Source: Thermoanaerobacterium xylanolyticum LX-11 (GTDB lineage: Bacteria > Bacillota > Thermoanaerobacteria > Thermoanaerobacterales > Thermoanaerobacteraceae). From it: DNA of 64,000 nucleotides. The stretch covers positions 144,501 through 208,500 of the forward strand of contig NC_015555.1 in the NCBI RefSeq assembly GCF_000189775.2, in the 5' to 3' direction. Position numbers and translations under genes: made by a program. The notes beneath the pieces were generated by a model, which was given only the letters and a program-made list of their open reading frames with translations, did not search any database and was not told the origin of the DNA. Below, piece after piece: positions 12,026-57,806 of the stretch; positions within the stretch are counted from its first letter, which is position 1; each line of letters opens with the position of its first letter.

Positions 12026-12709
12026 ATGGGCGAAAACAAAAAAATATATATAGTTGACGATGATAGAAATATATGTGAAATAATTTCACTTTATCTTGAA
12101 AAAGAAGGTTTTGCAACAGTAAAGATCAGTGACGGGATTACAGCATTGAACAAAATAAAAGAGGAACTCCCCTTGCTTATAATACTTGATTTGATGCTTC
12201 CCGGCATTGATGGAATGACATTGTGCAAAGAGGTGAGGAAATTCACAAATGTGCCTATTATAATGCTTACAGCCAAAGGAGATACATTTGACAAGGTATT
12301 GGGGCTGGAGATAGGCGCCGATGATTACATCGTAAAGCCTTTTGATGGGAAAGAATTGGTTGCTCGTGTTAAAGCTGTGTTGAGAAGGTATGAACATGAG
12401 GAAAATGACAGCGACAGTGTCACATATCCTGATCTTTCTATAAGCTTAAGCGAGTACAAGGTGAAATACAAAGGCGAAAATGTTGACCTTACGCCGAAAG
12501 AATTGGAGCTTTTTTACTTCTTGTGTACTCATCCAAATAAAGTGTTTACGAGAGATCAATTGTTAGAAAACGTATGGGGATACGAGTACATGGGGGACAG
12601 CCGAACTGTCGATGTGCACATAAAACGTTTGAGAGAGAAAATAGGGGATGGTCCAAACTGGAAATTAACTACTGTATGGGGTGTGGGATATAAATTCGAG
12701 GTGAAATGA
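12026..12709 (+). CDS. OmpR/PhoB-family response regulator
   Basis: 227 aa. Receiver domain 1-120 with acidic pocket D11-D13, phosphoacceptor D55 (ILDLMLPG) and the conserved lysine of DDYIVKPF. The C-terminal winged helix (about 130-227) ends in RTVDVHIKRLREKIG. ATG 12026 follows AAGAGGGG. The partner kinase starts 1 bp after its stop. Two sets of three direct hexamers at 11-bp period lie downstream, in front of htrA, and are probable binding sites for this protein. Confidence 0.95.
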   Translation: MGENKKIYIVDDDRNICEIISLYLEKEGFATVKISDGITALNKIKEELPLLIILDLMLPGIDGMTLCKEVRKFTNVPIIMLTAKGDTFDKVLGLEIGADDYIVKPFDGKELVARVKAVLRRYEHEENDSDSVTYPDLSISLSEYKVKYKGENVDLTPKELELFYFLCTHPNKVFTRDQLLENVWGYEYMGDSRTVDVHIKRLREKIGDGPNWKLTTVWGVGYKFEVK

Positions 12710-12710
12710 T

Positions 12711-14132
12711 TTGAGCAGAAATAGGCTCTTTAGAAGGCTGCTTTTTACAAATATTGCAATAATACTGCTTACAATGTCGATACTTTCCGTCCTTTTTTAC
12801 ATCATGTTTGAAAATTACTATTTTCGCGATAAAGAAAAGATAATGGTAGAAGAAGGAAAGCAGATAAATACCGTGTTGAACGATTACCTCATAGGAGATA
12901 TAGATATCGACAGACTCAATCAGGATCTGAATGTCATTGACCGGCTTATAAACGCATCGATATGGGTTGTAAGTACAGATGGACGGATATATATACAGTC
13001 TAAGAATTTTGAAAAAAATTGGACAGGTGTCACATTAAGCAAAGATGACATCAAAAGCATTTTAAAAGGTGAGACAATTGTAAGAAGGGGATATTTTGGC
13101 GGCAGGTTTACGCAGCCTGTTTTGACTGTTGGATTTCCGCTTGTACTGGCTGGGAAGATTCAAGGTGCCATATTCATGCATGCTCCTATAGTAGAGATGC
13201 AGAAAACCTTGATGGACATATTTTTTATAATGCTTTTAGCCATAGCCATATCCATAATAATAGCATTTATACTTATTTCTTATACATCAAAGAGAATCTC
13301 TAATCCTTTAAAAGAGATGAGCATTGCAACAGAAAAAATGGCAAAAGGTGATTTTTCAACAAAGATAAACGTTGTAGATGACGATGAAATAGGAGATTTG
13401 GCTAAGTCTTTCAATATAATGTCAAGCGAATTGGGCAGGATGGATAATGCAAGGAAAGAGTTTGTGGCTAATGTTTCACATGAGCTTCGCTCGCCTTTGT
13501 CAACGATCCAAGGTTATATAGATGGCGTAGTGGATGGGACTATACCTGCGGAGAAATCCAAATTTTATTTGGAGATAGCTCAAAAAGAGACGAGACGAAT
13601 GTCTCGATTAATATCTGAACTTTTAGATATAACGAAAATGGAATCAGGGGCTTTTCCGTTAAACATATCGGAATTTGATATAAACGAGCTTATAAGGCTG
13701 ACCATAATAAAGATGGAAGCAAGGATAAGCGATAAAGATCTCATGGTTAAGGTGGACTTTGAAAGCGACAAAGAAATTGTAGAGGCAGATAAAGACAAAA
13801 TAGAACAAGTGCTTACTAATCTAATAGATAATGCAATTAAATTTTCAAATCCCGGTGGTTATATACACGTATCTACAGAGAAGGTGAAAGAAAAAGTTCA
13901 TGTAAGAGTCCAAAATAAAGGCAAGACGATACCACCTGATGAAATTGACCATATATGGGACAGGTTTTACAAAGTTGACAAGGCCAGAAGCGGTAGTCCC
14001 GGTGTCGGATTAGGGCTTTATATTGTGAGAAGCATCATAAATCTTCATAATGAGGATATATGGGCTACCAGTAGCGATGCAGACGGTACTACATTTACTT
14101 TTACACTTAAGTCAAAAAAAGTTAAGCAGTAA
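12711..14132 (+). CDS. Membrane sensor histidine kinase
   Basis: 473 aa with TTG start behind GAGGTGAAATGA. Transmembrane segments at about 10-31 and 166-190 flank an extracellular sensor of about 135 residues. HAMP (191-245) and HisKA follow, with the phospho-acceptor H257 in SHELRSPLSTIQGY. The HATPase domain has LTNLIDNAIKFS and SPGVGLGLYIV. With the downstream htrA, the module resembles the CssRS-HtrA secretion-stress circuit of Bacillus. That role is inferred from context. Confidence 0.94.
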   Translation: MSRNRLFRRLLFTNIAIILLTMSILSVLFYIMFENYYFRDKEKIMVEEGKQINTVLNDYLIGDIDIDRLNQDLNVIDRLINASIWVVSTDGRIYIQSKNFEKNWTGVTLSKDDIKSILKGETIVRRGYFGGRFTQPVLTVGFPLVLAGKIQGAIFMHAPIVEMQKTLMDIFFIMLLAIAISIIIAFILISYTSKRISNPLKEMSIATEKMAKGDFSTKINVVDDDEIGDLAKSFNIMSSELGRMDNARKEFVANVSHELRSPLSTIQGYIDGVVDGTIPAEKSKFYLEIAQKETRRMSRLISELLDITKMESGAFPLNISEFDINELIRLTIIKMEARISDKDLMVKVDFESDKEIVEADKDKIEQVLTNLIDNAIKFSNPGGYIHVSTEKVKEKVHVRVQNKGKTIPPDEIDHIWDRFYKVDKARSGSPGVGLGLYIVRSIINLHNEDIWATSSDADGTTFTFTLKSKKVKQ

Positions 14133-14143
14133 AATAAAATTTT

Positions 14144-14186
14144 TACAATTTGTTCATACTTTATTCATAAATTAAGGTTATAATAA
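14144..14186 (+). promoter_or_regulatory. First OmpR-type promoter (three direct hexamers plus -10)
   Basis: TTTACA (14144), TTCATA (14155) and TTCATA (14166) are spaced exactly 11 bp apart. Nine bases after the last hexamer comes TATAAT (14181-14186). There is no canonical -35. This is the layout of promoters activated by PhoB/PhoP-type regulators bound in place of the -35. Confidence 0.65.
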
Positions 14187-14191
14187 TAATC

Positions 14192-14266
14192 GAGAGAGAG
14201 AAAAGCCTCTCCTTGACCTCCCTTATTATAGCAGCTCGAGCCACCCCTCGGGCTGCATTTATTTTA
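14192..14266 (+). ncRNA. Candidate C-rich small RNA of about 75 nt
   Basis: Starts just after the first OmpR-type promoter and ends at a strong terminator (14231-14266). The leader contains CCTCTCC and GACCTCCC, unpaired C-rich stretches complementary to ribosome binding sites, and the terminator loop is also C-rich (CCACCC). No ORF fits. Such C-rich motifs are typical of Firmicute sRNAs such as RoxS/RsaE and FsrA. It could instead be only the trailer of the kinase operon. Confidence 0.45.
14231..14266 (+). terminator. Terminator of kinase operon / candidate sRNA
   Basis: GCAGCTCGAG (14231-14240) pairs with CTCGGGCTGC (14247-14256), 10 bp with one G.U, loop CCACCC, followed by ATTTATTTTA. 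Confidence 0.85.
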
Positions 14267-14294: not shown

Positions 14295-14337
14295 TTTACA
14301 ATATGTTCACAGTTTATTAAAAATTCTAATTTATAAT
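14295..14337 (+). promoter_or_regulatory. Second OmpR-type promoter, directly before htrA
   Basis: TTTACA (14295), TTCACA (14306) and TTAAAA (14317) at 11-bp period, then nine bases, then TATAAT (14332-14337). The architecture is identical to the promoter 151 bp upstream. It places the start site about 25 bp before the htrA codon. Confidence 0.68.
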
Positions 14338-14371
14338 GTAATCATGAGAGATGATAAGGAGGATGATGAAT

Positions 14372-15727
14372 ATGGATTTTGAAAATGAACAAAACAAAAA
14401 TATAGGCGAAAATGAAATAGATAATTTCAAGGCTGACGATGCCTTAGGTTCTGATGACATAAAAGGCGAAAATATAGATGACACTCAGGAAATTCCAGCA
14501 ACATATAGCGCCGCGGAAAGCGGAACCTATACGACACCAAGGGTAGAATTTAGAAGCAACAAAAAAAGCTTAGGCAAGATGGTTAAAAGATTCAGAAGAA
14601 GGATGCTTGTTTCATTTGTATCTGTTGCATTGATTGCAGCACTTATCGGTGGTGGAACTGTCGCAGGAATCATGAAATACACTAATTTAGGGCAACAGAC
14701 ACAGGTTATAAATAGGTACTTGCCACTTTCATCATCAGACAATAGCAATTTTAACTTGATTGCCAATATAGCTAAAATTGTAAGTCCTTCTGTTGTTGGA
14801 ATAGATACAAGCGTATCATACTCCAATGGATTTGGAAGTGCACTGGTGCCTGAAGGCAGTGGTTCTGGAATAATCATCGATTCACAAGGCTATATTGTAA
14901 CAAACAACCATGTTGTGGATGGTGCTTCTAAGATAACAGTAAATTTATCTGATGGTAGAAAGTTCCCTGCCCAACTTATAGGAAAGGATTCAAAGACTGA
15001 CTTGGCAGTATTGAAGATAAATGCTACGAATTTGGTTCCGGCAAAATTAGGTGATTCATCAAAACTTGAAGTGGGAGATCTGGCAGTTGCTATAGGAAAT
15101 CCTCTCGGTGAAAGCTTTGCAGGTACGGTTACAGCAGGTATAATAAGTGGTCTTAACAGAAATCTTCAAAGCGATTATGGCCCGGTTAACCTCATTCAGA
15201 CAGATGCAGCTATAAATCCTGGAAACAGTGGTGGACCTTTAGTAAATAGCAATGGTGAAGTTGTCGGGATAACAAGTGTAAAGTTAACATCTACAGGTGG
15301 TTCGAATACTCAAGATCCATTTGGAATGTTCCAGAGTCAAGGCACGCCTGTTGAAGGAATGGGATTTGCGATTCCGATAAATGAAGCAAAACCTATAATA
15401 GATGACTTGATAAAACACGGATATGTAGAAAGACCAATGATGGGTGTAAGCGTACAGGAAGTAACACAACAAGATGCAGCGCAGTACAATATACCAGTTG
15501 GACTTTATATAGCGCAAGTACAGCAAGGAAGCGGTGCTGATGAAGCTGGACTTCAACCAGGTGATGTGATAACAGCAGTAGATGGCACAAAAGTACAGAC
15601 TTTTGATGCACTGCAAAGCATAATAGCTAAGCATAAAGTTGGTGACACGATTACTGTTACATTCTGGAGAAATGGCAGGACAATGAGTACAAAAGTAAAG
15701 CTTATGAGCAGTTCAAATGCACAATAA
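14372..15727 (+). CDS. htrA: HtrA/DegP-like membrane-anchored serine protease
   Basis: 451 aa. An acidic cytoplasmic N-terminus (1-75) and one membrane segment (about 79-100) precede the trypsin-like domain, with catalytic H180 (TNNHVVDG), D210 (SKTDLAVLKI) and S286 (NPGNSGGPL). A C-terminal PDZ domain covers about 345-450. It degrades or refolds misfolded proteins at the outer face of the membrane. AAGGAGG at 14356-14362 fits ATG 14372; several upstream ATGs overlap the ribosome binding site. An OmpR-type promoter precedes it, so control by the neighbouring two-component system is likely. Confidence 0.95.
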   Translation: MDFENEQNKNIGENEIDNFKADDALGSDDIKGENIDDTQEIPATYSAAESGTYTTPRVEFRSNKKSLGKMVKRFRRRMLVSFVSVALIAALIGGGTVAGIMKYTNLGQQTQVINRYLPLSSSDNSNFNLIANIAKIVSPSVVGIDTSVSYSNGFGSALVPEGSGSGIIIDSQGYIVTNNHVVDGASKITVNLSDGRKFPAQLIGKDSKTDLAVLKINATNLVPAKLGDSSKLEVGDLAVAIGNPLGESFAGTVTAGIISGLNRNLQSDYGPVNLIQTDAAINPGNSGGPLVNSNGEVVGITSVKLTSTGGSNTQDPFGMFQSQGTPVEGMGFAIPINEAKPIIDDLIKHGYVERPMMGVSVQEVTQQDAAQYNIPVGLYIAQVQQGSGADEAGLQPGDVITAVDGTKVQTFDALQSIIAKHKVGDTITVTFWRNGRTMSTKVKLMSSSNAQ

Positions 15728-15746: not shown

Positions 15747-15788
15747 AGTTCTTTACCAGTCTCCTCCCGCTGGTAAGGAACTTTTTTT
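15747..15788 (+). terminator. htrA terminator
   Basis: AGTTCTTTACCAG pairs with CTGGTAAGGAACT over 13 bp (one G.U), followed by a T-run. Confidence 0.88.
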
Positions 15789-48470: not shown

Positions 48471-49023
48471 GTGCGCCCGGCATGGGCGGTAACTTGGCAG
48501 GGAAAGTCCGCTGTGGGCTTGGTAGTGGGAACCACGTGTCCATCGTGAGGTGGAATCTGAAGGAAGCGGTAGGCAAACTCTCGGTCTGATGAACAAAAAC
48601 CAGATAAGAGGCTGAATTAGGGCGGACGAGTTTGCAAGTCAAAACGAAGTCCAACACTACCCGAACCCCATACAGTAAATCTGGCAGATATATGAGATGA
48701 AGGTTATCGTTCTTACCCGGGGAGTTCTCAAGGACAAGTCATTAAAGTGAACTCTGAAATGACAACCCATGCAGTGATGTATGGCTGAACCTTGAGAAGT
48801 CAGCAGAGGTCATAGTACTTGTCTAGTCATGAATAGATAAGGAAGGACCGAACATTAGGAGGTTTTGGCGAGGGATATGCAGTTCTTAAGACAACTCAAC
48901 AAAGAGGCTATCCGCTCAATCAAGAAATGGAATTTAAAGAGAGAGGGGGATATATCATCGGCGTCAAAAGATAGAAGAAACAATGTACAAATATACACCA
49001 GTAATATGCTTGAAATGATACTA
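48471..49023 (+). mobile_element. Truncated group IIC intron (5' part only)
   Basis: Starts GTGCGCCCGGCATGGGCGG and stays nearly identical to the full-length intron at 55899 until the twentieth-odd codon block of the reverse transcriptase, where homology stops after GAAATGATACTA. Domains II-VI and almost all of the reverse transcriptase are missing, so it is dead. Relative to the full copy it lacks about 17 nt after GGGAACCAC. It sits directly behind a terminator T-run, the normal IIC target. Confidence 0.9.
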
Positions 49024-55039: not shown

Positions 55040-55066
55040 TAGATAATAAATTAATCAATAGACTAT

Positions 55067-55150
55067 GTCCGCTGGGGGTGCTTTTAGCTGAGATGGCAGA
55101 TGCCAAACCCCTAGAACCTGATTAGGTTAATACCTACGAAGGGAATGCGG
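55067..55150 (+). ncRNA. TPP riboswitch (THI element)
   Basis: GGGGGTGC, GCTGAGA, ACCCCTAGAACCTGAT and TAATACCTACGAAGGGAA follow in order, the invariant core of the THI element. It binds thiamine pyrophosphate and controls the thiT gene downstream. Confidence 0.96.
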
Positions 55151-55184
55151 CAAAAGACCGCATCAGTGTGCGGTTTTTTTGTTT
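55146..55184 (+). terminator. Riboswitch expression platform (terminator/antiterminator)
   Basis: ACCGCA and TGCGGT form the terminator stem followed by TTTTTTT. TGCGG just upstream (about 55147-55151) can pair with the same CCGCA and so acts as antiterminator. TPP binding is expected to hold that TGCGG within the aptamer end and favour termination. Confidence 0.8.
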
Positions 55185-55898: not shown

Positions 55899-57806
55899 GT
55901 GCGCCCGGCATGGGCGATAACTTGGCGGTGAAAGTCCGCTGTGGGCTTGGTAGTGGGAACCACTAGCTGAACCGCAAGGGTGTCCATCGTGAGGTGGAAT
56001 CTGAAGGAAGCGGTAGGCAAAATCTCGGTCTGAGGAATACGAACCAGATAAGAGGCTGAATTGGGGCGGACGAGTTTGCTGAACAAAACGAAGTCCAACA
56101 CTACCCGAACCCCATACAGTAAATCTGGCAGATAGACGAGATGAAGGTTATCGTTCTTACCCGGGGAGGTCTCAAGGATAAGTCATTAAAGTGAACTCTG
56201 AAATGACAACCCATGCAGTGATGTATGGCTGAACCTTGAGAAGTCAGCAGAGGTCATAGTACTTATCTAGTCATGAATAGATAAGGAAGGACCGAACATT
56301 AGGAGGTTTTGGAAATCTTATGAACTCGAAAGATATGCAGAGACTGCAGACAACTCAACAAAGAGGCTATCCGCTCAATCAAGAAATGGAATTTCAAGAG
56401 AGAGCGGAAGTGCATAGTATATCATCGGCGTCAAAAGATAGAAGAAACAATGTACAAAGATACACCAGTAATATGCTTGAAATGATACTAGACCGAGAAA
56501 ACATGAAAGAAGCATACAAACGAGTAGTTGCAAATAAAGGAAGCCATGGAGTCGATGGGATGGAAGTAGATGAACTTCTACCGTATCTCAAAGAAAACTG
56601 GCCGACCATAAAGCAACAATTACTGGAAGGAAAATATAAACCACAACCAGTGTTGAGAGTAGAAATACCAAAACCAGATGGAGGAACAAGACTACTAGGG
56701 ATACCTACAGTACTAGACAGACTAATACAACAAGCAATAGCCCAAATACTAAGTGGAATATACGACCATACATTCTCTGATAACAGTTATGGTTTCAGAC
56801 CTAGACGCAGTGCAAAAGACGCAGTAATAGCCGCAGAAGTATATATAAACGAAGGATGCACATGGGTAGTAGATATAGACTTAGAAAAGTTCTTTGACAG
56901 AGTAAACCACGACATACTAATGTCCAAATTAGAAAAGCGGATAGGAGACAAACGAGTACTGAAGCTAATACGAAGATACTTAGAATCAGGAGTAATGATA
57001 AATGGAATCAAAGTAGCAACAGAAGAAGGGACACCACAAGGAGGGCCATTAAGTCCGCTACTAGCAAACATAATGTTAGATGAACTAGACAAAGAACTAG
57101 AAAGAAGAGGACATAAATTCTGTCGATATGCAGATGATTGCAACATATACGTAAAAAGCAGGTCAGCAGGAAACAGAGTAATGAAAAGCATAAAGAAATT
57201 CATAGAAACCAAATTAAAACTAAAAGTCAATGAAACAAAAAGTGCTGTAGATAGACCATGGAAAAGAAAATTCTTAGGATTTTCGTTTTATACAAAAGAA
57301 AACGAAGTAAGAATAAGGATTCATGAAAAATCCATCAAAAGGTTTAAGGAAAAAGTAAGAGAAATAACCAATCGAAACAAGGGAATAAGCATGGAATACA
57401 GAATACGTAGATTGAATCAGATAACGACAGGATGGGTTAACTATTTTGGATTAGCAGATGCGAAAGGAATAATGAAAGCTCTTGACGAATGGATAAGGCG
57501 TAGACTAAGAGCATGTATATGGAAGCAATGGAAGAAGACAAAAACAAAGTATGACAATCTGATAAAATTAGGAGTAGAAAAACAAAAAGCCTGGGCATAC
57601 GCCAATACGAGGAAAGGCTACTGGAGAATATCCAATAGCCAAATACTCAATATGACTCTTACAAATAAATACTTCGAAGACATAGGTTATAGAAGTTTAT
57701 CAAAAAGGTATCTAATCGTACATTAAATCTTAATGAACCGCCGTATACCGAACGGTACGTACGGTGGTGTGAGAGGACGGCGGTTAGTCACCGCCTCCTA
57801 CTCGAT
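55899..57806 (+). mobile_element. Full-length group IIC intron, about 1.9 kb
   Basis: 5' end GTGCGCCCGG behind the thiT terminator T-run; 3' end CTACTCGAT. Domain V is at about 57737-57768 (ACCGCCGTA with TACGGTGGT), with CGC at its base in the place of the catalytic triad. Domain VI follows (GGCGG-TTAGTCA-CCGCC region, 57773-57798). The encoded protein lacks an endonuclease domain, as in class C. Insertion just after an intrinsic terminator is the class C target preference. It looks intact and possibly mobile. Confidence 0.93.
56320..57726 (+). CDS. ltrA: Group IIC intron reverse transcriptase/maturase
   Basis: 468 aa. The RT fingers-palm carry IPKPDGGTRLLGIPTVLDRL, SYGFRPRRSAKDAV, VVDIDLEKFFDRVNHDIL, GTPQGGPLSPLLANI and the active site YADD (270-273). 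The maturase X/DNA-binding region follows (WKRKFLGFSF, YWRISNSQILN). It ends without an HNH endonuclease. It resembles the GsI-IIC RT of Geobacillus closely. The N-terminal 50 residues are extra. AGGAGG precedes ATG 56320. Confidence 0.96.
   Translation: MNSKDMQRLQTTQQRGYPLNQEMEFQERAEVHSISSASKDRRNNVQRYTSNMLEMILDRENMKEAYKRVVANKGSHGVDGMEVDELLPYLKENWPTIKQQLLEGKYKPQPVLRVEIPKPDGGTRLLGIPTVLDRLIQQAIAQILSGIYDHTFSDNSYGFRPRRSAKDAVIAAEVYINEGCTWVVDIDLEKFFDRVNHDILMSKLEKRIGDKRVLKLIRRYLESGVMINGIKVATEEGTPQGGPLSPLLANIMLDELDKELERRGHKFCRYADDCNIYVKSRSAGNRVMKSIKKFIETKLKLKVNETKSAVDRPWKRKFLGFSFYTKENEVRIRIHEKSIKRFKEKVREITNRNKGISMEYRIRRLNQITTGWVNYFGLADAKGIMKALDEWIRRRLRACIWKQWKKTKTKYDNLIKLGVEKQKAWAYANTRKGYWRISNSQILNMTLTNKYFEDIGYRSLSKRYLIVH

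Follow-up and report, generated by a model that had tools for sequence, protein, structure and literature searches.

A conserved candidate small RNA between a two-component system and htrA in Thermoanaerobacterium and its relatives

Described systems and the Thermoanaerobacterium locus

In Streptococcus, the CiaRH two-component system (TCS) controls htrA together with several sibling small RNAs, the csRNAs or Ccn sRNAs (PMC3091779, PMC4507080, PMC11478796). The csRNAs are made from promoters of the regulon, often fold into two stem-loops, some having mainly the terminator hairpin, and carry an unpaired region complementary to the Shine-Dalgarno (SD) sequence (PMC3091779); compensatory mutations support their base-pairing at the comC start region (PMC4507080). 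The RoxS/RsaE sRNAs of Bacillus and Staphylococcus have C-rich single-stranded segments with CCCCUUUGUU repeats and are controlled by OmpR-family regulators in the respiratory context of ResD/SrrA (PMC4409812); induction by NO belongs to this control.

The locus described here lies in a stretch of 64,000 nucleotides of Thermoanaerobacterium xylanolyticum LX-11 (NC_015555.1, 144,501 to 208,500; hereafter the window, whose numbering is used for bare coordinates), part of a 2.53-Mb genome in a single contig. The gene order is a glmU-like gene, a prs-like gene, an OmpR-type response regulator, a membrane histidine kinase, a 230-bp intergenic region and htrA. The regulator (12026-12709, plus strand) has the receiver and winged helix of the OmpR/PhoB family (Pfam Response_reg, 4.9e-29; Trans_reg_C, 3e-28), the sensor kinase (12711-14132, plus strand) has HAMP, HisKA and HATPase_c domains, and htrA/degP (14363-15727, plus strand) encodes a serine protease with a PDZ domain. 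Beginning 60 bp past the end of the kinase gene is the sRNA gene (14192-14266, plus strand), with a predicted transcript of about 70-75 nt and no conserved ORF. An earlier note on this DNA had described a promoter, a body of about 75 nt, a terminator and no ORF here, all of which are present, and its broader proposal of a regulator-type sRNA gene is supported: the gene is conserved, with an exposed C-rich segment and a promoter in the style of OmpR-family targets. The gene has the marks of an independent sRNA gene with an intrinsic terminator (own promoter, no ORF, terminator, conserved body), and its sequence features point, almost with certainty, to a real and discrete sRNA. No description of the RNA emerged from literature searches. 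Elsewhere in the window are two group II intron copies about 7.4 kb apart (48539-48848 and 55983-56292, recognized by Rfam D1D4 domains), with a TPP riboswitch (55064-55162) between them.

Compared with the CiaR csRNAs, the likenesses are of layout. Here too htrA and sibling sRNAs form one regulon, joined by a shared promoter box (two sRNA copies in the window's genome, G000, and three in another Thermoanaerobacterium genome, G005), and I infer that one TCS controls all the siblings; here too an 11-bp-period direct repeat stands close to a TATAAT, and the htrA-linked copies combine two stem-loops with an unpaired SD-complementary segment. The differences are equally plain: the half-sites read TTTACA/TTCATA and number three, whereas the CiaR repeat is NTTAAG-N5-TTTAAG and is not matched; there is no Rfam match; the bacterial order is another one; there are usually one to two copies; and the sRNA sits between the TCS and htrA. 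By analogy, the CiaRH csRNAs appear to be the nearest working analogue, and I would say that the RNA works like a csRNA rather than that it is one, because the half-site differs and the likeness is one of layout rather than of demonstrated homology.

The earlier note had instead likened the RNA to RoxS/RsaE, with which it does share C-rich single-stranded segments and, very probably, control by an OmpR-family regulator. The likeness does not extend to membership. Rfam searches, both at the gathering threshold and with E values up to 10, gave no RsaE/RoxS match and nothing credible, the published repeat is absent from the sRNA sequence, and the neighbours are htrA and envelope-stress genes, not a ResD/SrrA context; on these three grounds the assignment was rejected.

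The promoter box and its putative regulon

The sRNA promoter box, TTTACA-N5-TTCATA-N5-TTCATA-AA (14142-14171, plus strand), comprises three half-sites with an 11-bp period, followed 9 nt past the third by a TATAAT -10 element (14179-14184, plus strand) and by a predicted start at 14191-14192. A diverged copy, TTTACA-N5-TTCACA-N5-TTAAAA (14295-14324, plus strand), with its own TATAAT (14332-14337, plus strand), precedes htrA. The two promoters reported in the earlier note (14142-14184 and 14295-14337) thus form a 43-bp direct repeat; the copies share 77% identity, lie 153 bp apart and are the only matches to the box in the window at up to three mismatches (two against 0.02 expected). The PhoP-type boxes of Bacillus are TT-A-CA-like hexamers repeated every 11 bp. 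The hexamers and spacing here are similar, but the regulon consists of htrA, efflux and cell-wall genes, and phosphate genes were not recognized among the box matches.

Genomes were searched with a pattern that excluded the -10 element, with the reversed pattern as control. Across 13 genomes of the family, matches with zero or one mismatch fell exclusively at sRNA genes and the control gave none; TATAAT, though outside the search pattern, stood at the identical offset in 10 of the 11 boxed promoters compared. With up to three mismatches allowed, the matches in the window's own genome comprise both sRNAs, htrA, a second htrA (964650-965834), an efflux operon with a MacA-type adaptor, a PIG-L deacetylase gene, with an M23 hydrolase gene and rodA behind it, and an ABC transporter. 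The other nine matches all have three mismatches and may be background, the reversed control having given seven. Judged by their sequences, the boxed genes (htrA, efflux, cell-wall genes) constitute a putative envelope-stress regulon. An ABC exporter operon is preceded by a box with TATAAT at the standard offset (G000:C1:523085-523114, locus L157); it is boxed in genome G006 as well (L155) and is likely a further member. G006, in which there is no second sRNA copy, also has on the minus strand (L145:3262-3402) a boxed promoter that leads into a short terminated RNA of different body (ACCUUCUUAUA, with a GCAGUCUAAC terminator).

What binds the box is suggested by gene linkage. The TCS adjoins the sRNA unit in three genera, and it very probably controls the sRNA, with the response regulator as the presumed activator of the box; this rests on linkage because no box was found ahead of the window's own regulator genes. 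Comparison of the TCS with curated equivalogs gave no match above cut-off. Boxed htrA genes occur also in two other families (f3 and f4), in neither of which does the covariance model find the sRNA at that place, and in three f4 genomes without a copy a kinase-like ORF directly precedes the boxed htrA. The simplest history would be an old TCS-htrA module whose htrA promoter was duplicated in the ancestor of the present family, the upstream copy coming to drive the sRNA.

Two rival readings concern this arrangement. The hairpin might be the terminator of the TCS operon beside a promoter duplicated by chance, with no functional RNA, as the 60-bp distance from the kinase gene and the tandem duplication of the htrA promoter would allow; yet the 20-nt core described below is under a constraint that refutes this reading in sequence as regards the core, copies elsewhere have their own promoter and terminator, and the covariance model scores below 1e-16 in every family genome, so that I regard it as extremely improbable. 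Alternatively, since the unit immediately precedes htrA and shares its strand, the hairpin might be a leader or attenuator through which the first promoter reads into htrA under some conditions. Against this, a separate boxed promoter serves htrA downstream of the terminator, copies of the sRNA precede unrelated genes, no upstream segment complementary to a terminator arm was seen, and it is the terminator, not the invariant core, that drifts; an attenuator is very unlikely.

Folding, conservation and copies of the RNA

The RNA folds at -26.5 kcal/mol (z -4.4), better than all 200 dinucleotide shuffles. A 5' hairpin (14192-14214, plus strand) pairs a GAGAG-type arm (14192-14200) with CUCUCC(UU) (14207-14214); the exposed candidate seed GACCTCCC follows (14215-14222, plus strand), 63-99% unpaired and invariant across the aligned copies, and then an intrinsic terminator (14231-14256, plus strand) with a GC-rich hairpin of 10 bp and the T-rich tail ATTTATTTTA. 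The predicted fold is most naturally read as two hairpins that leave a segment of anti-SD type on display. The earlier note had taken three C-rich elements to be exposed. GACCUCCC is 63-99% unpaired in every copy folded, whereas the CUCUCC box is mostly paired within the 5' hairpin (unpaired probability 0.00-0.30 in 11 of 12 htrA-linked sequences) and the Cs of the terminator loop are present in only part of the family. GACCUCCC is therefore the sole element of the three both exposed and conserved.

The 20-nt core CTCTCCTTGACCTCCCTTAT (14207-14226, plus strand) stands unchanged ahead of htrA in 19 of the 20 family genomes, drawn from Thermoanaerobacterium, Thermoanaerobacter, Caldanaerobacter and one further genus, and with one mismatch in the twentieth. 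In the alignment of these 20 htrA-linked loci 19 of the 20 core columns are invariant, and over six diverged genomes the core is 100% identical, compared with 84% for the promoter box, 79% for the 5' arm and loop, 69-79% for the terminator arms, 52% for the tail and spacer and 38% for the terminator loop. The C-rich boxes are thus conserved in related genomes, a check that the earlier note had itself proposed, and the outcome that it held would tell against an sRNA, conservation confined to the terminator stem, is the opposite of what is seen, the stem being less conserved than the core. The stem is kept by compensation: 95.3% of its cells are paired, against 27-44% when the columns are slid by one to three, with 19 two-sided changes and five pairs changed on both sides.

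The window's genome contains a second copy (G000:C1:929025-929100) between rodA and the gene for the MacA-type efflux adaptor; three other Thermoanaerobacterium genomes (G002, G003 and G008) have a second copy too, and G005 has three copies. All extra copies have the same promoter box and a terminator-like hairpin of their own, although the fold of the third copy in G005 is weak (z -0.8). The second copies consist mainly of the terminator hairpin; their 5' hairpin is weak or absent and their CUCUCC box is free (unpaired probability 0.87-0.88). One might also ask whether the conserved body encodes a small peptide, for the copies of genus g3 have an ATG within AAATGCCTCTCC; but the window, genus g2 and the second copies have none, 4-nt insertions in the second copies shift the frame, and the core lacks variation of synonymous type, all of which reduce that idea to a next to negligible chance.

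The covariance model reaches E 7.6e-27 at the window locus and stays below 1e-16 in 20 of 20 family genomes; nothing comparable was found in 17 other genomes of the class or in 399 sampled genomes of the phylum, the best match outside the family scoring 27.5 bits. A scan for the core in 84,980 species returned Thermoanaerobacterium, Thermoanaerobacter, Caldanaerobacter and a related MAG, besides two chance matches in Saccharibacteria, which were rejected since neither promoter box nor terminator was seen there and their score of 22.6 bits falls short of the 77-92 bits of true copies. Distant covariance-model matches of 25-27 bits within the phylum were likewise set aside, the core being absent from the loci checked, as were occurrences of CTCTCCTTAACCTCTCTTTT in four genomes of genus g3, which have no promoter box.

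Pairing, targets and a possible silencing arm

Taken together, the best explanation is probably a trans-acting, stand-alone sRNA, one member of a sibling family within the envelope-stress regulon that the adjacent TCS would control. What the sequence itself supplies is a putative regulon promoter, a short, terminated and apparently non-coding RNA, and a strongly constrained core duplicated elsewhere with its promoter. Under envelope stress, the phosphorylated OmpR-type regulator would bind the three half-sites and activate both the sRNA and htrA; single-stranded GACCUCCC would then pair with several mRNAs at their G-rich translation start regions and lower their translation, with CUCUCC joining the pairing once the 5' hairpin opens, so that the sRNA may complement the induced protease and efflux functions with a silencing arm. 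Repression through pairing of GACCUCCC at start regions is the outcome I would expect, with fair confidence, from precedent; the target searches gave no conserved target.

In those searches the mean pairing energy of the sRNA over the 58 start regions of the window was -13.9, against -13.75 +/- 0.77 for 200 shuffles. The capacity to pair with GGAGG ribosome binding sites, offered in the earlier note as evidence, is therefore uninformative alone and follows from C-richness. The duplex search of start regions in the window gave no target beyond what shuffles reach, patterns of longer complementarity found no conserved target at start regions, and GGGAGGTC-ATG sites were no commoner than in the reversed control. 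Among the patterns AAGGGAGGT-ATG, GGGAGGTC-ATG and AAGGAGAGG-ATG, the last alone gave orthologues recurring between genera, namely a phosphoglycerate mutase-like gene (G000 and G009) and an FMN-binding-type lipoprotein (G000 and G013), both named by eye from sequence; this recurrence is attributable to ordinary SD conservation. With TAAGGGAGGTCAAGG at up to two mismatches, the recurrent matches examined lay inside coding frames, besides the sRNA loci themselves (opposite strand). As a separate observation, G009 (C1:1220572-1245994) contains a cluster of small ORFs of 59-77 aa with ELTQTELLNINGG / MELTEDNLIAVDGGVNY leaders, each with the identical SD AAGGAGAGGAGGGAAAGA, which looks like a bacteriocin-like family of precursor peptides.

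The lack of targets also bears on the possibility that this is a real regulon sRNA whose C-rich core acts by binding a protein or as an RNA decoy and not by blocking ribosome binding sites. Such a role would fit the invariance of all 20 nt, which exceeds the needs of a 7-8 nt seed. However, in the two extra copies of G005 the sequence varies between the boxes (CTCTCC-C-TGACCTCCC) and past the second one, as two pairing boxes would predict, and pairing with mRNA is known for C-rich single-stranded segments of Bacillota sRNAs (PMC4409812). I therefore consider the protein or decoy role unlikely, and retain pairing at start regions as the working reading.

The CCUCCC motif of the candidate seed recurs at the 3' ends of regulon mRNAs. 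Of the three CCTCCC sites on the plus strand of the window, one is in the sRNA and another (15763-15768) in the C-rich loop UCUCCUCC(C) of the htrA terminator hairpin (15750-15779, plus strand), a loop conserved in the genus. In the 14-kb second locus the motif occurs twice on both strands taken together, once within the sRNA and once in the 3' UTR of the efflux region. That 3' UTR (L144:9663-9726, or G000:C1:933662-933725), conserved in G002, G003 and G008, consists of ATAACCTCCCTATAAAGCAGCC followed by a strong terminator; it resembles the second half of the sRNA and could possibly yield a 3'UTR-derived sRNA. CCTCCC, once shortened to CCTCC, also lies ahead of the htrA terminator in most genomes of genus g3 checked, and is absent from the htrA 3' UTR of G009 and G016. 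In most Thermoanaerobacter and Caldanaerobacter genomes checked, the htrA 3' UTR contains GCCUCCC or ACCUCCC, in a different structural position. CCTCCC is no commoner than chance in the window or in the second locus, and its placement is the notable part, suggesting, short of proof, that several regulon transcripts share a seed. A bolder version, that the regulon spreads a CCUCCC seed over sibling sRNAs and mRNA 3' ends (htrA, and the efflux 3' UTR with ATAACCUCCCUAUAAAGCAGCC and terminator), having evolved independently of the CiaRH csRNAs, is doubtful; if it were true, each induced gene would feed a shared silencing arm.

The locus represents a candidate post-transcriptional arm of the envelope-stress response, with a defined promoter code, in industrially used thermophilic anaerobes, and it apparently parallels the CiaRH-htrA-csRNA network of streptococci. 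With few copies and a nearly invariant core across 20 genomes, it is also a simple system for testing. Should it be confirmed, the joining of htrA induction to sibling sRNAs of anti-SD type would look like a design that recurs in the Bacillota.
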